This document shows positions 48,926 to 59,237 of a stretch of 64,000 nucleotides of DNA, piece after piece. The stretch is taken from positions 186,001 through 250,000 of the forward strand of contig NZ_VCBA01000005.1 of the NCBI RefSeq assembly GCF_007995245.1, read 5' to 3'. Numbering within the stretch: position 1 is the stretch's first letter; the number at the start of each line of letters is the position of its first letter. Below the pieces are notes generated by a model. That model had not been told where the DNA came from, ran no database searches, and was given only the letters and a program-made list of their open reading frames with translations. This stretch comes from Tateyamaria sp. syn59. Its GTDB lineage: Bacteria; Pseudomonadota; Alphaproteobacteria; Rhodobacterales; Rhodobacteraceae. Both the position numbers and the translations under genes were made by a program.

Positions 48926-50063
48926 GGATTGGGAAGCTGGCGGTTTCGGGCTGTACGTCCACTGGCCCTTTTGCGCTGCCAAATGTCCCTACTGTGATTT
49001 CAACAGCCATGTGACCAATGTGGTCGATCATGACGCTTGGCGCGCTGCGCTTGTTACAGAGGTGGAGCGCGTCGGCGCTTTGACACAAGGCCGCGTCTTG
49101 CGGTCTGTTTTCTTTGGTGGTGGCACGCCAAGCCTCATGGAGCCATCCACGGTCGAAGCAATATTGTCCACGGCGGCCAAGACCTGGCCGATTGCCAATG
49201 ACGTTGAAGTGACGCTCGAAGCAAATCCAACCTCGGTCGAGGCCGATAAGTTCGTCGCCTTTCGCGCGGCAGGCATCAATCGTGTGTCGATGGGGATCCA
49301 GGCGTTGAATGATGCGGATCTGCGCGCGCTTGGCCGCCTGCACAGCGCAGCCGAAGGGTTGGCTGCGTTTAACATCGCCAGATCAGTCTTTGATCGCGTG
49401 AGCTTCGATCTGATGTATGGACGTCAAAATCAGTCTCTAACGCAGTGGGAAGCTGAGCTTCAGCAAGCGTTGGCGCTCGACCTTGATCACGTCTCTTTGT
49501 ACCAGCTGACAGTTGAGCCGGGAACAGCATTCGGCGACCGCTACAAACGTGGAAAACTGCGCGGCCTGCCTGATGATGATCTATCCGCTGACATGTATGC
49601 GCTCACCCAGGATGTTTGCGCTGCTCACAACATGCCGCGGTACGAAGTGTCGAACCATGCACGCGACGGAGCGGAATCGCGCCACAACCTCATCTATTGG
49701 CGATACGGGGATTATGCCGGTATCGGGCCGGGAGCGCATGGCAGGCTTACGCTGAGCGGTACTCGCATTGCGACCGAACAACAGCGCATGCCGAAAATAT
49801 GGTTGCAGGGTGTCAATCGTGAAACATCCGAGAGGCTCTCTGACATGGATCAAGCCACGGAATATGTAATGATGGGCTTACGTCTGGCAGAGGGTATCGA
49901 CGTGGACCGGTATACACGGCTTGCCGGGCGCACCTTTCATCCAGATAAACTGGATGAGTTGAGATCCATGGGCCTAATATCGGTGTCGAAAAACAGATTA
50001 GTCGTTACTTATCAAGGGTTTAGTCTCCTGAACGGGGTGCTTGGATCACTCCTGAATGACTAA
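48918..50063 (+). CDS. hemW: HemW, radical SAM haem chaperone
   Basis: 381 residues. The radical SAM cluster motif C-x3-C-x2-C is at Cys19, Cys23 and Cys26 (CAAKCPYC), followed by FFGGGTPSLMEP and the glycine-rich SAM region. The family was long called coproporphyrinogen III oxidase-like, but members carrying this four-Cys-lacking pattern are haem chaperones. The predicted start is TTG 48918, overlapping rdgB by 8 bases with GCAGGT ahead; no ATG or GTG lies before the conserved domain. It ends against convergent parB. Confidence 0.9.
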   Translation: MAEDWEAGGFGLYVHWPFCAAKCPYCDFNSHVTNVVDHDAWRAALVTEVERVGALTQGRVLRSVFFGGGTPSLMEPSTVEAILSTAAKTWPIANDVEVTLEANPTSVEADKFVAFRAAGINRVSMGIQALNDADLRALGRLHSAAEGLAAFNIARSVFDRVSFDLMYGRQNQSLTQWEAELQQALALDLDHVSLYQLTVEPGTAFGDRYKRGKLRGLPDDDLSADMYALTQDVCAAHNMPRYEVSNHARDGAESRHNLIYWRYGDYAGIGPGAHGRLTLSGTRIATEQQRMPKIWLQGVNRETSERLSDMDQATEYVMMGLRLAEGIDVDRYTRLAGRTFHPDKLDELRSMGLISVSKNRLVVTYQGFSLLNGVLGSLLND

Positions 50064-50947
50064 GTTGCGCTCAAGCGGCGGCACAAGTCATCCAACTGGT
50101 CCAATGTCTCATACTGCAGCGTCAATATCCCGGCTTCGCCATTCGGCTTATGCGTCAAAGACACTTTCACGCCAGTGGCCGCAGACAGATCGTCTTCTAG
50201 AGCGCGCGTATCCGCATCTTTTTCGACCTTCGGTTTTGGTGCGCCGGTGAACACTTTGGTTCCCGGCTCTTCCATTCCCTTCTTGACGAGAGCTTCGGTC
50301 GCTCGCACAGAAAGGCCGCCAGCAATCACCTTTTTGGCAAGAGCGACCGGATCGTCTGCCGTGATCAACGCGCGCGCATGCCCTGCGCTCAGCGCGCCAT
50401 CCGTGACAAAAGCCTGAACAGCTTCCGGCAGTTGCAGCAGCCGTAGCAGGTTGGCAATGTGGCTGCGCGACTTACCCAGCGCTTCCGCCATTTTTTCCTG
50501 TGTGTGACCAAACCGATCCATCAGCTGCTTGTATCCTGCTGCCTCTTCAATCGGGTTTAGATCCGCACGCTGGATGTTTTCGATAATCGCGACTTCCAGA
50601 ACTTCGGTGTCAGTGAAGTCGCGCACGAGAACGGGAAGTTCATGCAATTGCGCCTGCTGCGCCGCACGCCACCGACGTTCGCCTGCGACGATTTCAAAGC
50701 TTTCGCCCAACGGGCGAACGATCAGCGGCTGGAGGACACCCTTTTCCTTGATCGACGCAACCAGATCTTCAAGTGGTGCAGCATCAAACTGGCGCCGTGG
50801 CTGATTGGGGTTTGGCTTGATTTTCTCGATCGGAATACGCTGCTCACCACCACTCGGTGACGTTGCTTGCGCTGCTGGTTCGTTTACATCCGCCATAAGA
50901 GCGGAAAGCCCGCGGCCCAAACCTCGCTTTTTGTCACTGTTCGCCAT
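50060..50947 (-). CDS. parB: Chromosome partitioning protein ParB
   Basis: ParB binds parS and, with ParA, segregates the origin; CTP-dependent sliding clamps form around parS. The 295-residue protein has KRGLGRGLSALMAD at the start, the CTPase/ParB-like core with GERRWRAAQ (89-97) and the helix-turn-helix (GHTQEKMAEALGKSRSHIAN). It lies one base after the parA stop. Two perfect parS sites are 1.5-3.5 kb away. Confidence 0.96.
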   Translation of the reverse strand: MANSDKKRGLGRGLSALMADVNEPAAQATSPSGGEQRIPIEKIKPNPNQPRRQFDAAPLEDLVASIKEKGVLQPLIVRPLGESFEIVAGERRWRAAQQAQLHELPVLVRDFTDTEVLEVAIIENIQRADLNPIEEAAGYKQLMDRFGHTQEKMAEALGKSRSHIANLLRLLQLPEAVQAFVTDGALSAGHARALITADDPVALAKKVIAGGLSVRATEALVKKGMEEPGTKVFTGAPKPKVEKDADTRALEDDLSAATGVKVSLTHKPNGEAGILTLQYETLDQLDDLCRRLSAT

Positions 50948-50948
50948 A

Positions 50949-51758
50949 TCAGGCCCCTACTGCTGTGTTGTTGGCGACCAGCTCTTTGGCCAGATCGCGA
51001 TAGGCAATCGCGCCTTTTGATGTGCTGTCATAGGCCAGAACCGGCACAGCAAAAGATGGCGCTTCACTCACCCTGACGTTCCGTGGAATCCGCGTCTTAA
51101 ATACGATGTCACCAAGGTTATCACGCGCGTCCTGTTCAACCTGCTGAGACAAGTTGTTCCGCGCATCATGCATTGTCAGGACCACACCCTCGATCCGCAA
51201 ATTTGGATTGCCGCTCTGCCGGACCTCTCGAATGGTCAACATCAACTGCGACAAACCTTCCAGTGCAAAGAATTCGCTTTGCAGCGGCACGAGAATGGAA
51301 TGCGATGCGATCATCGCATTAACCGTCAAAAGGTTCAAAGACGGCGGACAATCAACGAGGATAAAGTCAAATTCATACGCGTCCATCTCTGTTTGACGCA
51401 GTGCATCATGAAGAAGGAAGCTGCGCTTTTCGTTTGAGATGAGTTCGATGTCCGCCGAACTCAAGTCCACAGTGGCAGGGACGATCGCCAAATCTTCGAT
51501 ATCAGTGGCAAGAATAACATCTTGCAATGAGATATCACCAAGCAGCAGATCATACGTGGTATGTTCGCGGTCATCCATCTCGATGCCCAAGCCCGTGGAT
51601 GCGTTTCCTTGAGGATCAAGGTCCACGACAAGAACTCTGTGGCCCAACTCGACCAGCGCGGCTGCCAAATTGATGGTCGTTGTGGTCTTGCCCACCCCAC
51701 CCTTTTGGTTCGCAACAGAAATAATCTTGGGCCCTGGCGGGCGCGTCGGATCAGACAC
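50949..51758 (-). CDS. parA: Chromosome partitioning ATPase ParA
   Basis: ParA forms dynamic ATP-bound patches on the nucleoid that pull ParB-parS complexes to cell poles or halves. The 269-residue protein has the deviant Walker A KGGVGKTT at 19-26, the Walker B VLVVDLDPQGNASTG and DFILVDCPPSLNLLTVNAM. Upstream it overlaps rsmG by 8 bases, so it belongs to rsmG-parA-parB. Confidence 0.97.
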   Translation of the reverse strand: MSDPTRPPGPKIISVANQKGGVGKTTTTINLAAALVELGHRVLVVDLDPQGNASTGLGIEMDDREHTTYDLLLGDISLQDVILATDIEDLAIVPATVDLSSADIELISNEKRSFLLHDALRQTEMDAYEFDFILVDCPPSLNLLTVNAMIASHSILVPLQSEFFALEGLSQLMLTIREVRQSGNPNLRIEGVVLTMHDARNNLSQQVEQDARDNLGDIVFKTRIPRNVRVSEAPSFAVPVLAYDSTSKGAIAYRDLAKELVANNTAVGA

Positions 51759-52362
51759 GCTGGATATCCTTGATCTTTAGGACAACTGCTTCGCTGTTTG
51801 TTTTACTTGGCGTTGCTTCATAAGAAAACCGCCAGTTTTCCTCAGCATCAGCAACCTCTTTCTGCCACTGCGCGCCTTTTTGAAAAACGCATAGCCCGTC
51901 CTGCGCCAAGTGAAGTTCGGCGAAATGCAACAACGTATCTAAGGGCGCAAGTGCCCGGGCCGATATGGTTTGCGCATGAAGCGGAGAGGCCTCCTCAATG
52001 CGTTTAGCGATGACACTTATCGGAACATCCAGTTCGCGCGCGCACGTTCTGAGGAATGTCGCTTTTCTTTGGTCACTTTCGATAAGAGCGCACTCGGCGT
52101 TGGTATTGTTCGCTTGAACCAAAATCGCTACCACAACACCAGGCAAACCGCCTCCGCTGCCCAAATCGGCCCATATACCTTCTCTCGGTTCAAATACTTG
52201 CACACTGTCCCAAAGGTGCCTGACCTCCAGATCATCAAGCGTTGATTTGGCAACAAGATTGATCTTCGGTGTCCACTTACGGATCAGCTCCGCATATGCC
52301 TGTAACTTCTCAAATGTTTCACGTGAAACACTGCTCGAAGCCCACTCCGGAATAGCATTCAT
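51751..52362 (-). CDS. rsmG: 16S rRNA m7G527 methyltransferase RsmG
   Basis: Methylates N7 of G527 in 16S rRNA. The 203-residue protein has a SAM-binding motif [16 protein letters not shown] near residue 70 and [20 protein letters not shown]. Codons near residues 10-16 (VSRETFE) spell out a perfect parS palindrome. The start overlaps the mnmG stop by ATGA and the end overlaps parA by 8 bases, so it is part of a compact unit. Confidence 0.93.
52315..52330. promoter_or_regulatory. parS: parS site inside rsmG
   Basis: TGTTTCACGTGAAACA is a perfect 16-bp palindrome identical to the bacterial parS consensus recognised by ParB. It lies within the rsmG coding sequence near the start, about 1.4 kb from parB. 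Confidence 0.93.
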
Positions 52363-54218
52363 GCGGATTTCTTTTCCAGGAACCGGATCCTGCCCAGGAT
52401 CAGGGCAAGCGCTGCGGGTGTCATACCATCAATACGCCCGGCCTGAGCCAGATCAGAGGGTCGAACCGCAGATAGCTTTGCCTGCAGTTCAGCCGAAAGA
52501 CCGGAAATGTTTGAATAATCGAAGTCTTCTGGAATTTTAAGCCGCTCATCCTTTCGAAGCTTTTCGATGTCGTTCCGCTGACGCGCGATGTAGTTGGCGT
52601 ATAGTGCGTCACGAGCCACCTGTTCTTTGATCTCAGGTGCAAAGTCGCCCGCTTCAGGAACCAAGCCCTCAACCTGATCAAAGGTGACATCAGGAAACGC
52701 CAAAACCTGAAATGGCGTCCGCTTTGTCCCGTCCTGATTGATCTGAATGCCCTGCTGTGCGATTTGTTTAGGTGTAAACTGGACGCTCTCAAGGCAAGCC
52801 CGAAGCCCGTCCAATTCACTGCGCTTTTGAACAAAGGAAGCGTAACGCCCATCAGATACGCACCCCAAGTTGCGACCAAACTCAGTCAACCGCTGGTCAG
52901 CGTTGTCAGCACGCAAAGACAAACGGAACTCAGCCCGTGACGTAAACATCCGGTAAGGCTCGGTCACACCTCGGGTCGTCAAGTCATCAATCATAACGCC
53001 GATGTAACTTTCGTCTCGCCGGAAATGGACAGGATCCTTGCCCGAAACAGCGCGGGCGGCGTTGATACCTGCGACAAGGCCTTGAGCGGCCGCCTCTTCA
53101 TATCCTGTTGTGCCGTTGATCTGACCCGCGAGGTAAAGCCCTTTTACATCGCGCACTGCCAAATCTGCGTTCAAAGACCTGGGATCGACATAGTCGTACT
53201 CGATCGCGTACCCGGGCTGTAGGATTTCAACATCTTCCAAACCAACGATGGACCGCACGTATTCTGTTTGCACATCAACAGGTAGGGACGTCGAAATCCC
53301 GTTTGGATAAATCGTGTGGTCGTTCAACCCTTCTGGCTCAAGAAAGACCTGATGACTATCCTTATCTGCAAAGCGGACAATTTTATCCTCAATCGACGGA
53401 CAATATCTTGGACCCACACCGTCGATATGTCCGCCATACATGGCGGACCGGCCAAGGTTATCACGAATGATATCGTGTGTTTTGGTGTTCGTATGCGTGA
53501 TTCCGCATGCGACTTGCTTCAGCGGCGCGGTTGTCGACAGGAAGGAAAACAGGCTGGGTTCAGGATCGGCGTCTTGAACATCCAGAATATCCCACCGAAT
53601 TGTGCGGCTGTCCAAACGGGGCGGTGTGCCCGTCTTGAGGCGTCCAGTCGGCAGCGAAAAACTGTCAATACGATCTGCGAGAGGAACCGAAGCATTGTCT
53701 CCCATGCGACCGCCAGAATACGACGTGTCGCCAATGTGAATGACGCCGCGCAAAAACGTACCTGTGGTCAAGATGACAGCGGAGGCCGAAATTTCACTTT
53801 CGTCCCGCAGAATAACGCCCGCCACTGCGTCATCTACCATGTAGAAGTCGATAACTTCACCTTCCACTATGGTCAGATTTTCGGTGTTATCCATGATGCG
53901 CAGCATCGTGCTCTGATACACAGCGCGGTCCGATTGCGTACGCGGACCTTGAACTGCGGGCCCTTTTCGCCGGTTTAGCAACCGGAATTGTATTCCTGAC
54001 GCATCCGCAACACGGCCCATGACCCCGTCCATGGCATCGATTTCACGAACCAGATGCCCTTTGCCTAAGCCGCCGATTGCTGGGTTACACGACATAACAC
54101 CGATGCCGGACCGTTTCATGGTCACCAGAGCAGTATCAGCACCCATACGCGCTGCGGCATGCGCGGCCTCTGTTCCGGCATGCCCCCCACCAACAACGAC
54201 GACGTCAAAATGTTTCAC
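52359..54218 (-). CDS. mnmG: tRNA uridine-5-carboxymethylaminomethyl enzyme MnmG (GidA)
   Basis: With MnmE it installs cmnm5U at the wobble base of certain tRNAs, using FAD. The 619-residue protein has the FAD-binding start [34 protein letters not shown] and [18 protein letters not shown] 54218 is chosen because GGAG lies 8 bases upstream and the protein begins [11 protein letters not shown] 54227 is possible, while longer frames enter mnmE. A second perfect parS palindrome covers the start codon. It starts 13 bases after the mnmE stop. Confidence 0.95.
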
Positions 54219-54226
54219 GTGAAACA
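54211..54226. promoter_or_regulatory. parS: parS site over the mnmG start
   Basis: A second perfect copy of TGTTTCACGTGAAACA, reading through the mnmG start region (FHVKH in that frame). It is 1.9 kb from the copy in rsmG. ParB bound here could affect mnmG expression as well as segregation. Confidence 0.93.
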
Positions 54227-54231
54227 CTCCA

Positions 54232-55515
54232 TCACTTACCCAGACAAAAGCTGGAGAATATCTCATCCAGCAGGTTTTCAACATCCACGCGACCGACAAC
54301 AGCTTCCAAGGATCGAATCGCAACGTGCATTTCGTCTGCTGCGATATCATACCGATCCGGGCCCGCTGCAACCAATGCGGACGCAGAAGATAAGTCCGTC
54401 AATGCGCGCTCCATCGCAGACCGATGACGTTCATGTGTTACCAGGCCTGCGGACTGGCTACGCGTAGATAGCTCAGTGGCTATATCATCAACCAGATGGT
54501 CAACACCCAACCCGGTCACACCCGAAACTGCAGGAACGTCATCAGCTCTCAGATCCGCTTTAGGCGCGCGCACGACATCCCCGTATTGTACAAGGACAGG
54601 CAACTCTTCATCCGGCTCAACGAGAAAAACGCATAAATCCGCGTTTTTCGCTCGCGCAATAGCCCGCGCAATACCTTCGGCCTCAATCTGATCACCCGCC
54701 TCACGCAGGCCCGCTGTATCCAGCAGGGTGACAGGCAAACCATTCATATCCATCCGCACCTCGATGACATCGCGGGTCGTACCGGCAATTTCTGAGGTAA
54801 TAGCGGCCTCTCGCTGCGCCAAAGCGTTCAGAAGTGTTGATTTACCTGTATTGGGTGCACCTACAATCGCGACTTCAAATCCCGACCGGATGCGTTCCGC
54901 GGCAGAAAACCCTTTGAGCTGCTCCCGAATACCATCTGTGACCTGCGCCAGCAGGCTCTGAACTTCCGGAGTGACATCAACCGGGACGTCCTCGTCAGCG
55001 AAATCTATAGTCACCTCGATCAAGGCCGCTGCTCGGATCAAAAGGCTGCGCCAGGTTTCAATCTGCTCACCAAGCGCGCCGGATACCGTACGCAACGCCT
55101 GTTGCCGCTGGGCCTCTGTCTCAGCCTCAATCAAGTCACCCAGGCCTTCGACCTGGGCCAGGTCCATCTTGTTGTTTTCGAGGGCACGACGCGTGAATTC
55201 GCCAGGGTCGGCAAGCCGTGCCTCTGTCTTACCAAGCGTGCGCAAAACCGCAGAGACCACGGCAATGCTTCCGTGCAGGTGCAACTCGACCACATCTTCG
55301 CCCGTAAAGCTGCGCGGCGCGTCAAAAACCAGGATCAATGCGTGATCCAAGGCTTGCCCGTTTGTATCGCGCAAAACACGGGTCGCCATAGTCCGCGACT
55401 GCGGTAGACCGGTGCAAAGCGTTTGCGCTACCTGTTTTGCAGACGGGCCCGAAATACGGACAACCGCAACACCGGCACGCCCCTGCGCCGTGGCGAGGGC
55501 AAAGATTGTATCCAT
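54232..55515 (-). CDS. mnmE: tRNA modification GTPase MnmE (TrmE)
   Basis: GTPase partner of MnmG in wobble uridine modification. The 427-residue protein has the formyl-THF-binding N-terminal domain ([20 protein letters not shown]), the helical domain, the GTPase domain with GAPNTGKST (219-227) and [13 protein letters not shown], and the C-terminal FCLGK that replaces the common CIGK; the catalytic-type Cys is kept. It starts 22 bases after the rho stop. Confidence 0.95.
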
Positions 55516-55537: not shown

Positions 55538-56809
55538 TCAGGTGTTCATGGAGTCGAAGAATTCGCTGTTCGTTTTGGTCTGCTTCAACTTCGAGATCAG
55601 GAACTCAATGGCGTCGGTTGTTCCCATCGGGTTCAAGATGCGCCGCAAGACAAAGGTCTTGGCCAAGTCTGTCTTGTCGACAAGCAGATCCTCTTTACGC
55701 GTCCCGGATTTGAGAATGTCGATAGCCGGGAACACACGCTTGTCGGCGATTTTGCGATCCAAAACGATCTCGGAGTTACCGGTGCCTTTAAACTCTTCAA
55801 AGATCACCTCGTCCATCCGGCTGCCCGTTTCAATCAGACCGGTCGCGATGATGGTCAGCGATCCGCCTTCTTCGATGTTACGCGCAGCACCAAAGAACCT
55901 CTTGGGCCGTTGCAGGGCGTTTGCGTCAACACCACCAGTCAGCACCTTACCTGACGATGGCACCACGGTGTTGAATGCTCTACCAAGTCTTGTGATCGAG
56001 TCCAAAAGGATAACAACATCTCGCTTATGTTCGACCAGTCTCTTGGCTTTCTCGATGACCATTTCCGAAACGGCAACGTGACGCGTGGCCGGCTCGTCAA
56101 AGGTAGAGCTCACCACCTCGCCCTGAACAGACCGCTGCATGTCGGTCACCTCTTCGGGCCGCTCGTCGATCAGCAGGACAATCAGATAGCACTCGGGGTG
56201 ATTTTCTTCGATGCTGGACGCGATGTTCTGCAGAAGGACCGTCTTACCGGTCCGCGGCGGCGCCATGATCAAAGACCGCTGCCCTTTGCCGATCGGAGCA
56301 ACCAGGTCGATGATTCGCGCAGACCGGTCTTTGGTCGTCGGATCTTTCTTCTCAAGCGTCAAACGTTCGTCGGGATAAAGCGGCGTCAGGTTATCGAAAG
56401 CGATCTTATGCTTCGCACGCTCGGGCTCTTCAAAATTGATCTTGGTCGCGTTCGTCAGAGCAAAGTAACGCTCGTTGTCATCTGGCGCCTTAATCACCCC
56501 TTCGATGGTGTCCCCGGTGCGTAGCGAATATTGCCGGATCATCTCGGGCGAGACATAGATGTCGTCGGGACCAGGCAGATAGTTTGCCTCGGGCGAGCGC
56601 AGAAAGCCAAAGCCGTCCTGAAGCACTTCAAGCACGCCATCGCCCGAAATCTCCCATCCCTCATCCGCGCGTTCACGCAGGATCTGGAACATCATTTCGC
56701 CCTTACGCATGGTCGAGGCATTTTCGATCTCAAGCTCTTCTGCCATGGCAAGAAGGTCTTTAGGACTTTGTGCCTTGAGGTCAGCAAGGGCGAGGCGTTC
56801 TGCGGTCAT
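55538..56809 (-). CDS. rho: Transcription termination factor Rho
   Basis: Hexameric RNA helicase that ends untranslated transcripts. The 423-residue protein has the N-terminal helical domain, the RNA-binding CSD ([20 protein letters not shown]), Walker A APPRTGKT (183-190), Walker [17 protein letters not shown] and the R-loop/Q-loop region. Length and all motifs are normal. Together with mnmE-mnmG-rsmG-parA-parB it runs away from the oriC candidate; the 123-base gap to hemJ shows no clear structure. Confidence 0.97.
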
Positions 56810-56932
56810 GTGGGTATACTTGGCCCGCTGTGATCCAGCGGTGCGCGTCCAATCAAATGTGAAAGCTGTATGCGGTCCCCGGACGGGGTGCGAGCCAGCA
56901 CATAGGCATTGTGTTGACCGGAGTCAATGAGA

Positions 56933-57379
56933 TCAGAATTTCACGACGACCGACAACACGATCAGGACCATCAAAAGGGTCGGCACCTCATTCATCATCC
57001 GGTACTGTCGACCGGTCTTGACCGGGCCACCGGCGGCAAAGGCCTTGCGCTGTGTGCTCAGCCAGCCATGGAAGCCCGACATTGCAAGAATCCCAATCAG
57101 CTTGGTCCAAGGCCACACCGCGCCCCAATCAATCACGCCCGGAATTGCCGCAAGCACAAGGCCGAACACCCATGTGGCAATCATCGCCGGGTTCATGATG
57201 ACCTTCAGCAGTTTATATTCCATGGTTTGAAACAGGGCATGTGTCTCCCCCTCAAGACCCACGCTTTCAGTGTGGTAGACATAGAGGCGTGGCAGGTAGA
57301 ACAGCGCAGCCATCCAGGCAATCACAGACATGATGTGAAATGCCTTGATCCAGGGATAAAGGGAGATGATGAAGTCCAT
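56933..57379 (-). CDS. hemJ: Protoporphyrinogen oxidase HemJ
   Basis: Membrane enzyme oxidising protoporphyrinogen IX to protoporphyrin IX in bacteria lacking HemG/HemY. The 148-residue protein has four to five hydrophobic helices, the conserved WIKAFHIMSVIAWMAALFYL segment with His15, and FHGWLSTQRKAFA near the end. It lies on the left edge of the oriC candidate. In several alphaproteobacteria hemE is also near the origin; it was not seen here. Confidence 0.93.
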   Translation of the reverse strand: MDFIISLYPWIKAFHIMSVIAWMAALFYLPRLYVYHTESVGLEGETHALFQTMEYKLLKVIMNPAMIATWVFGLVLAAIPGVIDWGAVWPWTKLIGILAMSGFHGWLSTQRKAFAAGGPVKTGRQYRMMNEVPTLLMVLIVLSVVVKF

Positions 57380-57790
57380 GTCTGAGCCTGTCCGTGACGT
57401 CCGGGGCCACCCTTATAAATAAATATAAGAAAGAAAAGAGATGATGATTTTGTAGGGATCTGGATTTCTGTGGATTATGCGTTTGTTCACGCAGTCTCCC
57501 ACCGTGGGACAGGTTTCGTCGTTTTGTCCAAGGTAGTCGAAAGTTGGATATAAAATTTTTAAAAACAAATACTTATAACGAAATTGAATGTGTGGGTGTT
57601 GTGGACAAATCTGTGTTCAATGTCTGGCAGTGTGACTTATCCCCACGTCACAACTTGTCCTTACCCATGGGGTATGAATGCTTGGCAAAGCGTGCGTTCC
57701 GGACCGAAGATCGGCACCCTTGATTGAAGTGCCTTGCCTTCGCCGTATTGATCCCACACTTCGGTGGTCGCAACACACAGGGATATCCAC
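57380..57790. other. oriC: Probable chromosomal replication origin (oriC)
   Basis: This 411-base gap holds no gene. It contains DnaA-box-like 9-mers one mismatch from TTATCCACA or its complement: TGTGGATTA (57469-57477), TGTGGACAA (57601-57609), TTATCCCCA (57638-57646) and ATATCCACA (57783-57791, touching the maf start). An A+T-rich stretch at about 57548-57590 could be the unwinding element. Two short inverted repeats are present: TGCGT/ACGCA at 57478-57493 and TCCCAC-C-GTGGGA at 57497-57509. Genes diverge on both sides, and parAB with parS lies 3-7 kb to the left, matching known alphaproteobacterial origins. Confidence 0.75.
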
Positions 57791-58390
57791 ATGACCACCC
57801 CCATTGTTCTCGCATCTGGGTCTTCTATCCGGGCACAGCTCTTGCGGAATGCGGGTGTGGCATTTGACGTCGCAGTGCCACGCGTGGACGAACATGCGAT
57901 CAAGGAAGCATTGATCGCAGAGGAGGCATCGCCCCGCGATATTGCGGATGCGTTGGCCGAAATGAAAGCGCGCAAGATTGCAGACAAAGTGCCCGGTGCC
58001 ATGGTGATCGGATGTGATCAGATTCTGGCTTTTGACGGGCGCATTCTTTCGAAGCCGGTTGATCAGGACGATGCCGCACATCAGTTGCGTGCCATGAGAG
58101 GAGAGCGGCACATGCTCTTGTCCGCGGCTGTCATCTATCACGAGGGAAAGCCGATCTGGCGGCATGTCGGTCAGGTGCGACTGCGCATGCGGCAGGTGTC
58201 AGACGACTACCTGAATGACTACATTGACAGAAATTGGGATGACATCCGCCACTCAGTTGGCGCATATCAACTTGAGGCCGAGGGGGTGCGCCTGTTTCAC
58301 AGCGTTGAAGGGGACTATTTCAATGTCCTGGGAATGCCGCTGTTGGAACTTCTTGCCTTCCTGACGCTGCGTGGGGTGATCGACGGATAA
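57791..58390 (+). CDS. maf: Maf-like nucleotide pyrophosphatase
   Basis: 199 residues. PIVLASGSSIRAQLLRNAGV at the start is the family P-loop-like motif, then VIGCDQILAFDGRILSKP and SVGAYQLEAEGVRLFHSVEG. Maf proteins hydrolyse modified or canonical pyrimidine NTPs; the exact substrate is not decidable here. ATG 57791 overlaps a DnaA-box-like sequence. It is the first gene right of the oriC candidate and precedes aroE. Confidence 0.92.
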   Translation: MTTPIVLASGSSIRAQLLRNAGVAFDVAVPRVDEHAIKEALIAEEASPRDIADALAEMKARKIADKVPGAMVIGCDQILAFDGRILSKPVDQDDAAHQLRAMRGERHMLLSAAVIYHEGKPIWRHVGQVRLRMRQVSDDYLNDYIDRNWDDIRHSVGAYQLEAEGVRLFHSVEGDYFNVLGMPLLELLAFLTLRGVIDG

Positions 58391-58406
58391 TCAAAGGCGG
58401 ATAGGA

Positions 58407-59237
58407 ATGAGCGACAAAATTCCTTTGGCGGGCGTCATCGGAACGCCCATAGCACATTCAAAGTCCCCGCAATTGCACCGCCACTGGCTGAAAACGCTTG
58501 GGCTGAAGGGTGACTACATCCCAATGGATGTTGCAGCGCAGGACCTGGAGGTCGTCTTGCGCACCTTGCCCAAGGCAGGATTTGTGGGCGTGAACATCAC
58601 CATTCCCCATAAGGAAGCAGCGCTTGAGATTGCGGATCTTGTCACAGATCGGGCGATTCTGATCGGTGCCGCGAACACATTGATCTTTCGGAAGGACGGT
58701 CAAATCCACGCCGACAACACGGATGGGTACGGGTTCATCGAAAACCTGAAGGCCGGTGCACCTGATTGGAATCCAACAGCAGGGCCGGCGACCGTGTTGG
58801 GCGCAGGCGGTGCTGCGCGGGCGGTTCTTGCTTCGCTTTTGGATGCGGGTGTGCCGGAGATTCTACTGACCAACCGAACGCGGGTGCGCGCCGAAAAACT
58901 GGCAGATGATTTTGGGAAAAAGGTGTCAGTCGTAGATTGGGTTCAGGCTGGCAACGTTCTGGAGGATTCAGCGCTTGTCGTGAACACAACGTCTCTGGGT
59001 ATGATTGGAAAGCCTGCCATGCGGGTGCCGCTGGATGGGCTGCGCGCGGGCACAATCGTGACTGATCTGGTCTATGCGCCGCTCAAGACTGATTTGCTGG
59101 CTGCCGCCGAAGCGGCAGGTTGCGTCGCTGTTGATGGTTTGGGGATGCTCTTGCATCAGGCGGTTCCGGCCTTTGAACGGTGGTTTGGTCATCGACCGGT
59201 CGTTGATAGCGCCACACGTGCCGCGGCACTGCGATGA
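58407..59237 (+). CDS. aroE: Shikimate dehydrogenase (NADP)
   Basis: Reduces 3-dehydroshikimate to shikimate in aromatic amino acid synthesis. The 276-residue protein has the substrate motif GTPIAHSKSPQLHRHWL (about 12-28), VNITIPHKEA, and the NADP-binding VLGAGGAARAVLASLL followed by NRTRVRAEKL. It overlaps coaE by ATGA. Confidence 0.96.
   Translation: MSDKIPLAGVIGTPIAHSKSPQLHRHWLKTLGLKGDYIPMDVAAQDLEVVLRTLPKAGFVGVNITIPHKEAALEIADLVTDRAILIGAANTLIFRKDGQIHADNTDGYGFIENLKAGAPDWNPTAGPATVLGAGGAARAVLASLLDAGVPEILLTNRTRVRAEKLADDFGKKVSVVDWVQAGNVLEDSALVVNTTSLGMIGKPAMRVPLDGLRAGTIVTDLVYAPLKTDLLAAAEAAGCVAVDGLGMLLHQAVPAFERWFGHRPVVDSATRAAALR

Follow-up and report, generated by a model that had tools for sequence, protein, structure and literature searches.

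The 411-bp intergenic region that separates the divergently transcribed hemJ and maf genes (57380-57790 in the coordinates of the window, that is, the entire 64-kb stretch of DNA analyzed here) is very probably the chromosomal origin of replication, oriC, of this Tateyamaria strain. The computed support for this assignment comes from the location of the region, the sites it contains, its conservation, and the nucleotide skew in relatives. The same interpretation was put forward in the first-pass annotation of this DNA, and it is upheld here because position, a cluster of DnaA boxes, an A+T-rich block, nearby parS sites, conservation across the family, and the GC skew of relatives all agree. 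By analogy, this is likely an ordinary origin of its family that resembles the Caulobacter type in its working and differs from it in the flanking genes.

The hemJ-maf gap and its genomic neighborhood

The window is part of contig C5 (336,522 bp) of a genome (G000) assembled into 56 contigs. The hemJ-maf gap has a GC content of 46%, compared to 58% for the window, and is gene-free, as was originally described. On its left lies a gene of the UPF0093 family (PF03653; 56933..57379, minus strand), which we take to be hemJ and the product of which is 97% identical to the HemJ protein of Tateyamaria sp. ANG-S1, an identity that assigns the strain to Tateyamaria; on its right lies maf (PF02545; 57791..58390, plus strand), with the ATG at 57791. 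The gene sets on the two sides of the gap point away from each other, in agreement with the first description. The putative oriC, to which no strand is assigned, comprises the whole intergenic region (57380..57790), which contains the only cluster of four boxes with at most one mismatch on the contig and recurs as a hemJ-maf gap in 80 of the 94 family loci, its own included.

The closeness to parABS that the first-pass annotation gives as typical of alphaproteobacterial origins is apparent here. The parA gene (50949..51758, minus strand; PF13614 AAA_31, PF01656 CbiA) and the parB gene (50060..50947, minus strand; PF02195 ParB_N, PF17762 HTH_ParB) are located 5.6-7.3 kb to the left of the gap, and two perfect parS sites, identified with what we assume to be the parS motif, are found on the plus strand 3.2 kb (TGTTTCACGTGAAACA, 54211..54226) and 5.1 kb (52315..52330) from it. 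Both perfect parS sites fall within the 5' portions of the listed rsmG and mnmG frames (window 51751-54371). The dnaA gene resides on the same contig, at about 287-289 kb, approximately 44 kb to the right of the gap, with dnaN- and recF-like frames, recognized by eye, adjoining it.

DnaA boxes

Four 9-mers in the gap differ from TTATCCACA by one mismatch, and no perfect copy is present, precisely as the first-pass annotation had it. The leftmost of these boxes, TAATCCACA (57469..57477, minus strand; family consensus TGTGGATTA), adjoins a GAT array, and is followed by TTGTCCACA (57600..57608, minus strand; aligned consensus TGTGGATAA), TTATCCCCA (57637..57645, plus strand; aligned consensus TTATCCACA), and ATATCCACA (57783..57791, plus strand). 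The rightmost box ends on the A of the maf ATG and aligns in 17 other Tateyamaria genomes, mostly as ATATCCACA or TTATCCACA. Two more degenerate positions complete the picture. At 57459..57467 (minus strand; TCTGGATTT on the plus strand), in tandem with the 57469 box, there is a weak second box with three mismatches, as counted by hand, for which the alignment consensus in 28 relatives is CTGnGGATA; at 57495..57503 (plus strand), the window carries a degenerate sequence (TCTCCCACC) at the place where the alignment consensus of the relatives is a TTATCCACA box.

Dinucleotide shuffles of the gap contain 0.16 boxes on average, and none of the 2000 shuffles reaches four; at the rate of boxes on C5 itself, about 4e-5 four-box clusters would be expected per contig. 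Among the 31 boxes with at most one mismatch on C5, the contig on which, among the 56, box clusters were assessed, 4 are inside the gap, and elsewhere the maximum is two per 400 bp. It is the cluster alone that exceeds chance: the 64-kb window overall holds 11 boxes versus 7.3 expected, which is no excess, and the whole genome shows no enrichment either, with 447 matches to the box pattern versus 452 for the reversed control. The non-consensus character initially attributed to this box set is real insofar as there is no perfect box, but it does not set this origin apart: 44 of the 78 aligned family gaps, the window's included, are without a perfect box, and the mean number of boxes with at most one mismatch per gap is 3.0, so that the four-box set of the window is typical. 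Three of the 78 gaps (L034, L109, and L021) contain no box with at most one mismatch.

A pair of perfect boxes on another contig (G000:C2:195220 and 195296) was considered as an alternative origin and set aside, there being just two boxes with ordinary-looking gene frames beside them. The two boxes (G000:C2:195220-195304, equivalent to L307:5220-5304) are on the same strand, 76 bp apart, between an exonuclease III-like frame, identified by eye, and a 183-aa frame (L307:4600-5151, minus strand) built from some eight divergent copies of a repeat centered on GDGVxxFSTSSAP.

A+T-rich DNA, the IHF-like site and other elements of the gap

The A+T-rich block reported previously is readily confirmed: the 100-bp segments that start at 57521 and 57541 are 69% A+T, the maximum for the contig, tied with the segment at contig position 196051. 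The central A+T-rich block proper (57544..57586) is 84% A+T over 43 bp. A separate A-rich tract beside the GAT array (57412..57439, plus strand), which is A-rich across the 78 aligned gaps, is the probable DNA unwinding element; the stretch 57412-57450, next to the box, is 82% A+T.

Two conserved elements come in addition to those of the first description, namely, the GAT array at 57440-57457 and an IHF-like site, AAACAAATACTTA, at 57563..57575 (plus strand). The latter fits a relaxed pattern, WAWCARNNNNTTR, that was picked after inspection of the sequence, and does not fit the strict consensus WATCARNNNNTTR. On the same strand, the relaxed pattern is found in 27 of the 78 gaps (the window's included) versus 3.0 in shuffles, and 27 of the 28 relaxed matches are located 150-210 bp from hemJ; the strict consensus, absent here, is present on the same strand in 11 of the 78 gaps versus 1.45 in shuffles. 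No CtrA site (TTAA-N7-TTAA) was detected in the window's gap, and the CtrA pattern occurs in 6 of the 78 family gaps versus 1.2 in shuffles; likewise, the window's gap contains no GANTC, which is present in 55 of the 78 family gaps versus 64.7 in shuffles. The two inverted repeats of the first-pass annotation are unconvincing: there are six weak pairs in the gap, none of which, by eye, stands out as kept in 17 other Tateyamaria genomes.

Conservation of the locus in the family

HemJ was sought in 120 genomes of the family, representing 120 genera, and a match was obtained in 113 of these, of which 90 were read through the locus and 23 were left out. Of the 94 family loci compared, one per genome and with that of the window among them, 80 show the divergent hemJ-maf arrangement; in the other 14 loci, either no maf was found (10) or there was no hemJ match (4). 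The length of the gap has a median of 404.5 bp, with a 10-90% range of 376-419 bp. Alignment of the 78 gaps of 300-500 bp, with the gaps of 175 and 591 bp excluded, shows conservation of the A-rich tract, the array, several further box positions, and the IHF-like site.

A sequence model, R1, that covers 99 positions at the left end of the gap was trained on 28 family genomes. At E≤0.01, it matches 103 of the 120 family genomes, namely, all 28 training genomes and 75 of the 92 others, with no match at this threshold in the remaining 17. The window's own genome, which was not in the training set, is matched with an E value of 1.6e-16 in the 120-genome search, and this gap is the sole match below E 1 on its own contig (E 1.2e-17). 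The match is at a single place in 102 of the 103 matching genomes, one genome (G079) having a second, weak match. For 83 of the 103, the distance from the match to the 5' end of hemJ, which is on the other strand, is 11-129 bp. All 20 Tateyamaria genomes (the window's genome and 19 further ones) are matched by R1.

The trinucleotide array

The DnaA-trio-like array, GATGATGATTTTGTAGGG (57440..57457, plus strand), was delineated from the alignment columns and model R1. In the 78-gap alignment, it is conserved as GATGATGATGTTGTAGGG, alongside TGTGGATTA; the conserved GATGATGAT..GTAGGG array adjoins the DnaA box, and its repeat unit is unusual for a DnaA-trio. The G columns at 57440, 57443, 57446, 57452, and 57455 are occupied by G in 60, 66, 77, 70, and 64 of the 78 gaps, respectively, the G at 57446 (77/78) being the best-kept base among 57434-57479; at 57449, where the window has T, G is present in 43 of the 78 gaps. 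In the 50 gaps outside the training set, the corresponding counts are 40, 44, 49, 43, and 39, and 27 at 57449. The T at 57442, 57445, and 57448 is found in 61, 70, and 65 of the 78 gaps, and the A at 57441, 57444, and 57447 in 62, 58, and 46. Among 17 other Tateyamaria genomes, the array and the first box are near-identical, and most of the other gap sequence varies. Arrays of GTG/GTT units, A-free over several units, are discernible by eye in some other alphaproteobacteria (L196, L215, L216, and L224, among others). A per-sequence test for G at every third base is mostly non-significant (11 of 78 family gaps and 1 of 30 class loci reach p<0.05; with the equivalent test for A, 6 of 78 family gaps do), so that the case for the array rests on the alignment columns and R1, and the array remains a lead.

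The DnaA-trio, together with the basal unwinding system, has been described in Bacillus subtilis and other bacteria (PMC8287927), and trio-like motifs are already listed in DoriC (PMC6323995). The Tateyamaria arrangement shares with that of Bacillus the succession of one DnaA box or a tandem set, a short spacer rich in G, a trinucleotide array, and then A+T-rich DNA, and the strand and side of the array match as well. The published unit is 3'-[G/A]AT-5' (PMC10797057) or 3'-GAT-5' (PMC8287927), and the search rule, as given in the latter source, specifies a minimum of three middle-A units within 16 nt of a box (PMC8287927). The Tateyamaria-type array, in contrast, keeps G and T more often than A. 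In the window, the published 3'-GAT-5' unit occurs once, at 57453-57455, followed by 5'-GAT-3' units; in phase with the 57453-57455 unit, the next units carry a middle T, as counted by hand. In a different phase, there are three 3'-TAG-5' units with a middle A, the distance being 20 nt to the good box and 10 nt to the degenerate tandem box; if the latter is counted, the array of the window can be read as fitting the middle-A rule. That alphaproteobacterial origins unwind via a variant DnaA-trio, marked by G at every third base (5'-GAT/5'-GTN) instead of a middle A, and read by DnaA through single-strand contact, is a speculative proposal of low but appreciable probability, made somewhat less likely by this alternative reading of the window's array.

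Nucleotide skew

A switch of GC skew at the gap, the check suggested in the first-pass annotation, gives a divided picture. In the window's own contig, the raw cumulative GC-skew minimum is at 295.3 kb, 52 kb from the gap and 7 kb from dnaA, and the GC3 break, with gene direction fitted, is also at 295 kb, with a 5-95% bootstrap range of 148-296 kb; the AT3 break, fitted in the same manner, falls 4.5 kb from the gap, at 248 kb, with a corresponding range of 234-252 kb. The gene frames behind the GC3 and AT3 values are crude, running from stop to stop with a minimum of 150 codons. On C5, the GC skew is of mixed sign from 243 to 295 kb and strongly positive thereafter; a local, recent inversion or import could be behind the mixed skew.

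For five relatives, of which G263 and G278 belong to the same genus as the window, skew was analyzed in stretches of 220-400 kb chosen around the conserved block, that of G278 ending 33 kb to the right of the block. The raw GC minimum is 1.3 kb from the block in G263, 1.6 kb in G003, 18 kb in G012, 24 kb in G278, and 32 kb in G111, distances to be read with the proviso that, the minima having been sought within block-centered stretches, a minimum elsewhere could be missed. The GC3 and AT3 breaks are more scattered: the offsets of the GC3 break in G263, G003, G012, G278, and G111 are +93, -5, -30, +20, and +30 kb, and those of the AT3 break are +3, -11, -69, -10, and +11 kb. In each of the five stretches, the top cluster of DnaA boxes is the block. 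The dnaA gene lies 47 kb from the block in G263, 81 kb in G003, 216 kb in G012, and 91 kb in G111, the stretch from G278 being without dnaA. In 20-kb samples taken far away, the sign of the skew fits an origin at this site in 8 of 9 cases in G111 and 7 of 8 in G003; the exception in G003 is near the expected terminus, and the wrong-sign block of G111 is at 2.1 Mb.

Alternative explanations

In many bacteria, the origin is beside dnaA, and the raw GC-skew minimum of the window's own contig, only 7 kb from that gene, along with the GC3 break at 295 kb, would fit such a location (C5, about 287-289 kb), in which case the hemJ-maf gap would be something else. This possibility appears very improbable to us. 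A box-rich region near dnaA, the rival site envisaged in the first-pass annotation, was looked for in the DNA that surrounds and precedes the gene (contig 287-291 kb), and not a single box with at most one mismatch was found there; the gap aside, no place on the contig is matched by R1 below E 1; the AT3 break of the same contig, with its bootstrap range, points to the gap; and the distance between dnaA and the GC-skew minimum is 48 kb in G263, of the same genus, and 234 kb in G012.

The two remaining possibilities assign the gap a function other than replication initiation, and we consider each of these to be exceedingly remote. Since the genes on either side of the gap diverge and promoters can contain DnaA boxes, the gap might be a mere two-way promoter of hemJ and maf, with DnaA as a transcription regulator. 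However, even where hemJ gave no match, in four loci of 3 kb, the block stays next to maf, and in two of these a rho-like frame, as judged by reading, is next on the left; a strong HemJ match is missing from 18 of the 103 R1-matching genomes, and 2 more (G086 and G076) have about 1.06 kb between hemJ and the block. Nor would a promoter account for the near-constant length of the gap across genera or for the GC-skew minima within 32 kb in the stretches from five relatives. A structured RNA or another non-origin element, for its part, would be compatible with a conserved, non-coding gap, but no Rfam family was detected at the gathering threshold in 56500-58600, and the parts that are conserved are DnaA boxes, the IHF-like site, and the trinucleotide array.

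Discussion

Closeness of ParABS to the origin is typical of Caulobacter-type alphaproteobacterial oriCs, and this trait is found in the Tateyamaria window. The origin of Caulobacter crescentus (Cori) is located between hemE and COG1806 and includes five DnaA boxes, one IHF site, and a 40-bp A+T-rich region (PMC1914354); weak DnaA sites have been described for it as well (PMC10797057). To the extent that these descriptions cover it, the Tateyamaria gap is of the same class, with DnaA boxes, an IHF-like site, and A+T-rich DNA in both, whereas the boundary genes are hemJ and maf instead of hemE and COG1806, and the CtrA motif of the Caulobacter type is absent; origins without CtrA sites have also been described (PMC1914354). 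Among loci from other alphaproteobacterial families (the best 30 of 99 genomes with PF03618), R1 matches upstream of COG1806 (PPSR), on the same strand, in 14 of 30 (E<0.01), that is, at the place reported for the Caulobacter origin (PMC1914354), and the block of two relatives, L099 and L120, has beside it what, on reading, looks like the start of COG1806. PF03618 (COG1806, PPSR), present in 99 of the 144 alphaproteobacterial genomes searched, has no match in genome G000, and the single hemE-family match (PF01208) of this genome is on contig C6, not C5; hence, the flanks here are hemJ and maf.

Origins of Rhodobacteraceae have been predicted with Ori-Finder from the minimum of GC disparity, low local GC, and nearness of parAB (PMC6699656). 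The gap described here has the low GC and the nearness of parAB, and the GC minimum is observed in relatives; the family predictions, in the accessible part of that article, come without origin sequence anatomy, and its text names neither hemE nor maf (PMC6699656). Our literature search for hemJ with oriC and Rhodobacter returned nothing, and that for Tateyamaria with oriC, an incidental mention only.

The arrangement of the sites suggests how initiation might proceed; beyond site recognition, the steps are modeled on E. coli, Caulobacter, and Bacillus. DnaA-ATP would bind the box at 57469-57477 and perhaps its degenerate tandem partner at 57459-57467, and would also occupy the weaker boxes at 57600, 57637, and 57783, with an IHF-induced bend at 57563-57575 drawing the boxes on the right up to those on the left. 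A filament of DnaA would then grow on the top strand towards the left, cover the GAT..GTAGGG array, and open the A-rich tract at 57412-57439, where the helicase would be loaded and from which two forks would depart. ParB bound at the parS sites 3-5 kb away would separate the new origins.

Taken together, these observations provide a well-supported origin for a genus of the Roseobacter group, along with a model, R1, that places a single site in most of the family genomes tested, drafts included. The GAT array poses the question of whether Alphaproteobacteria and Bacillus share the code that DnaA reads in unwinding the origin; if the variant trio turned out to be true, the published middle-A rule would miss some alphaproteobacterial origins.
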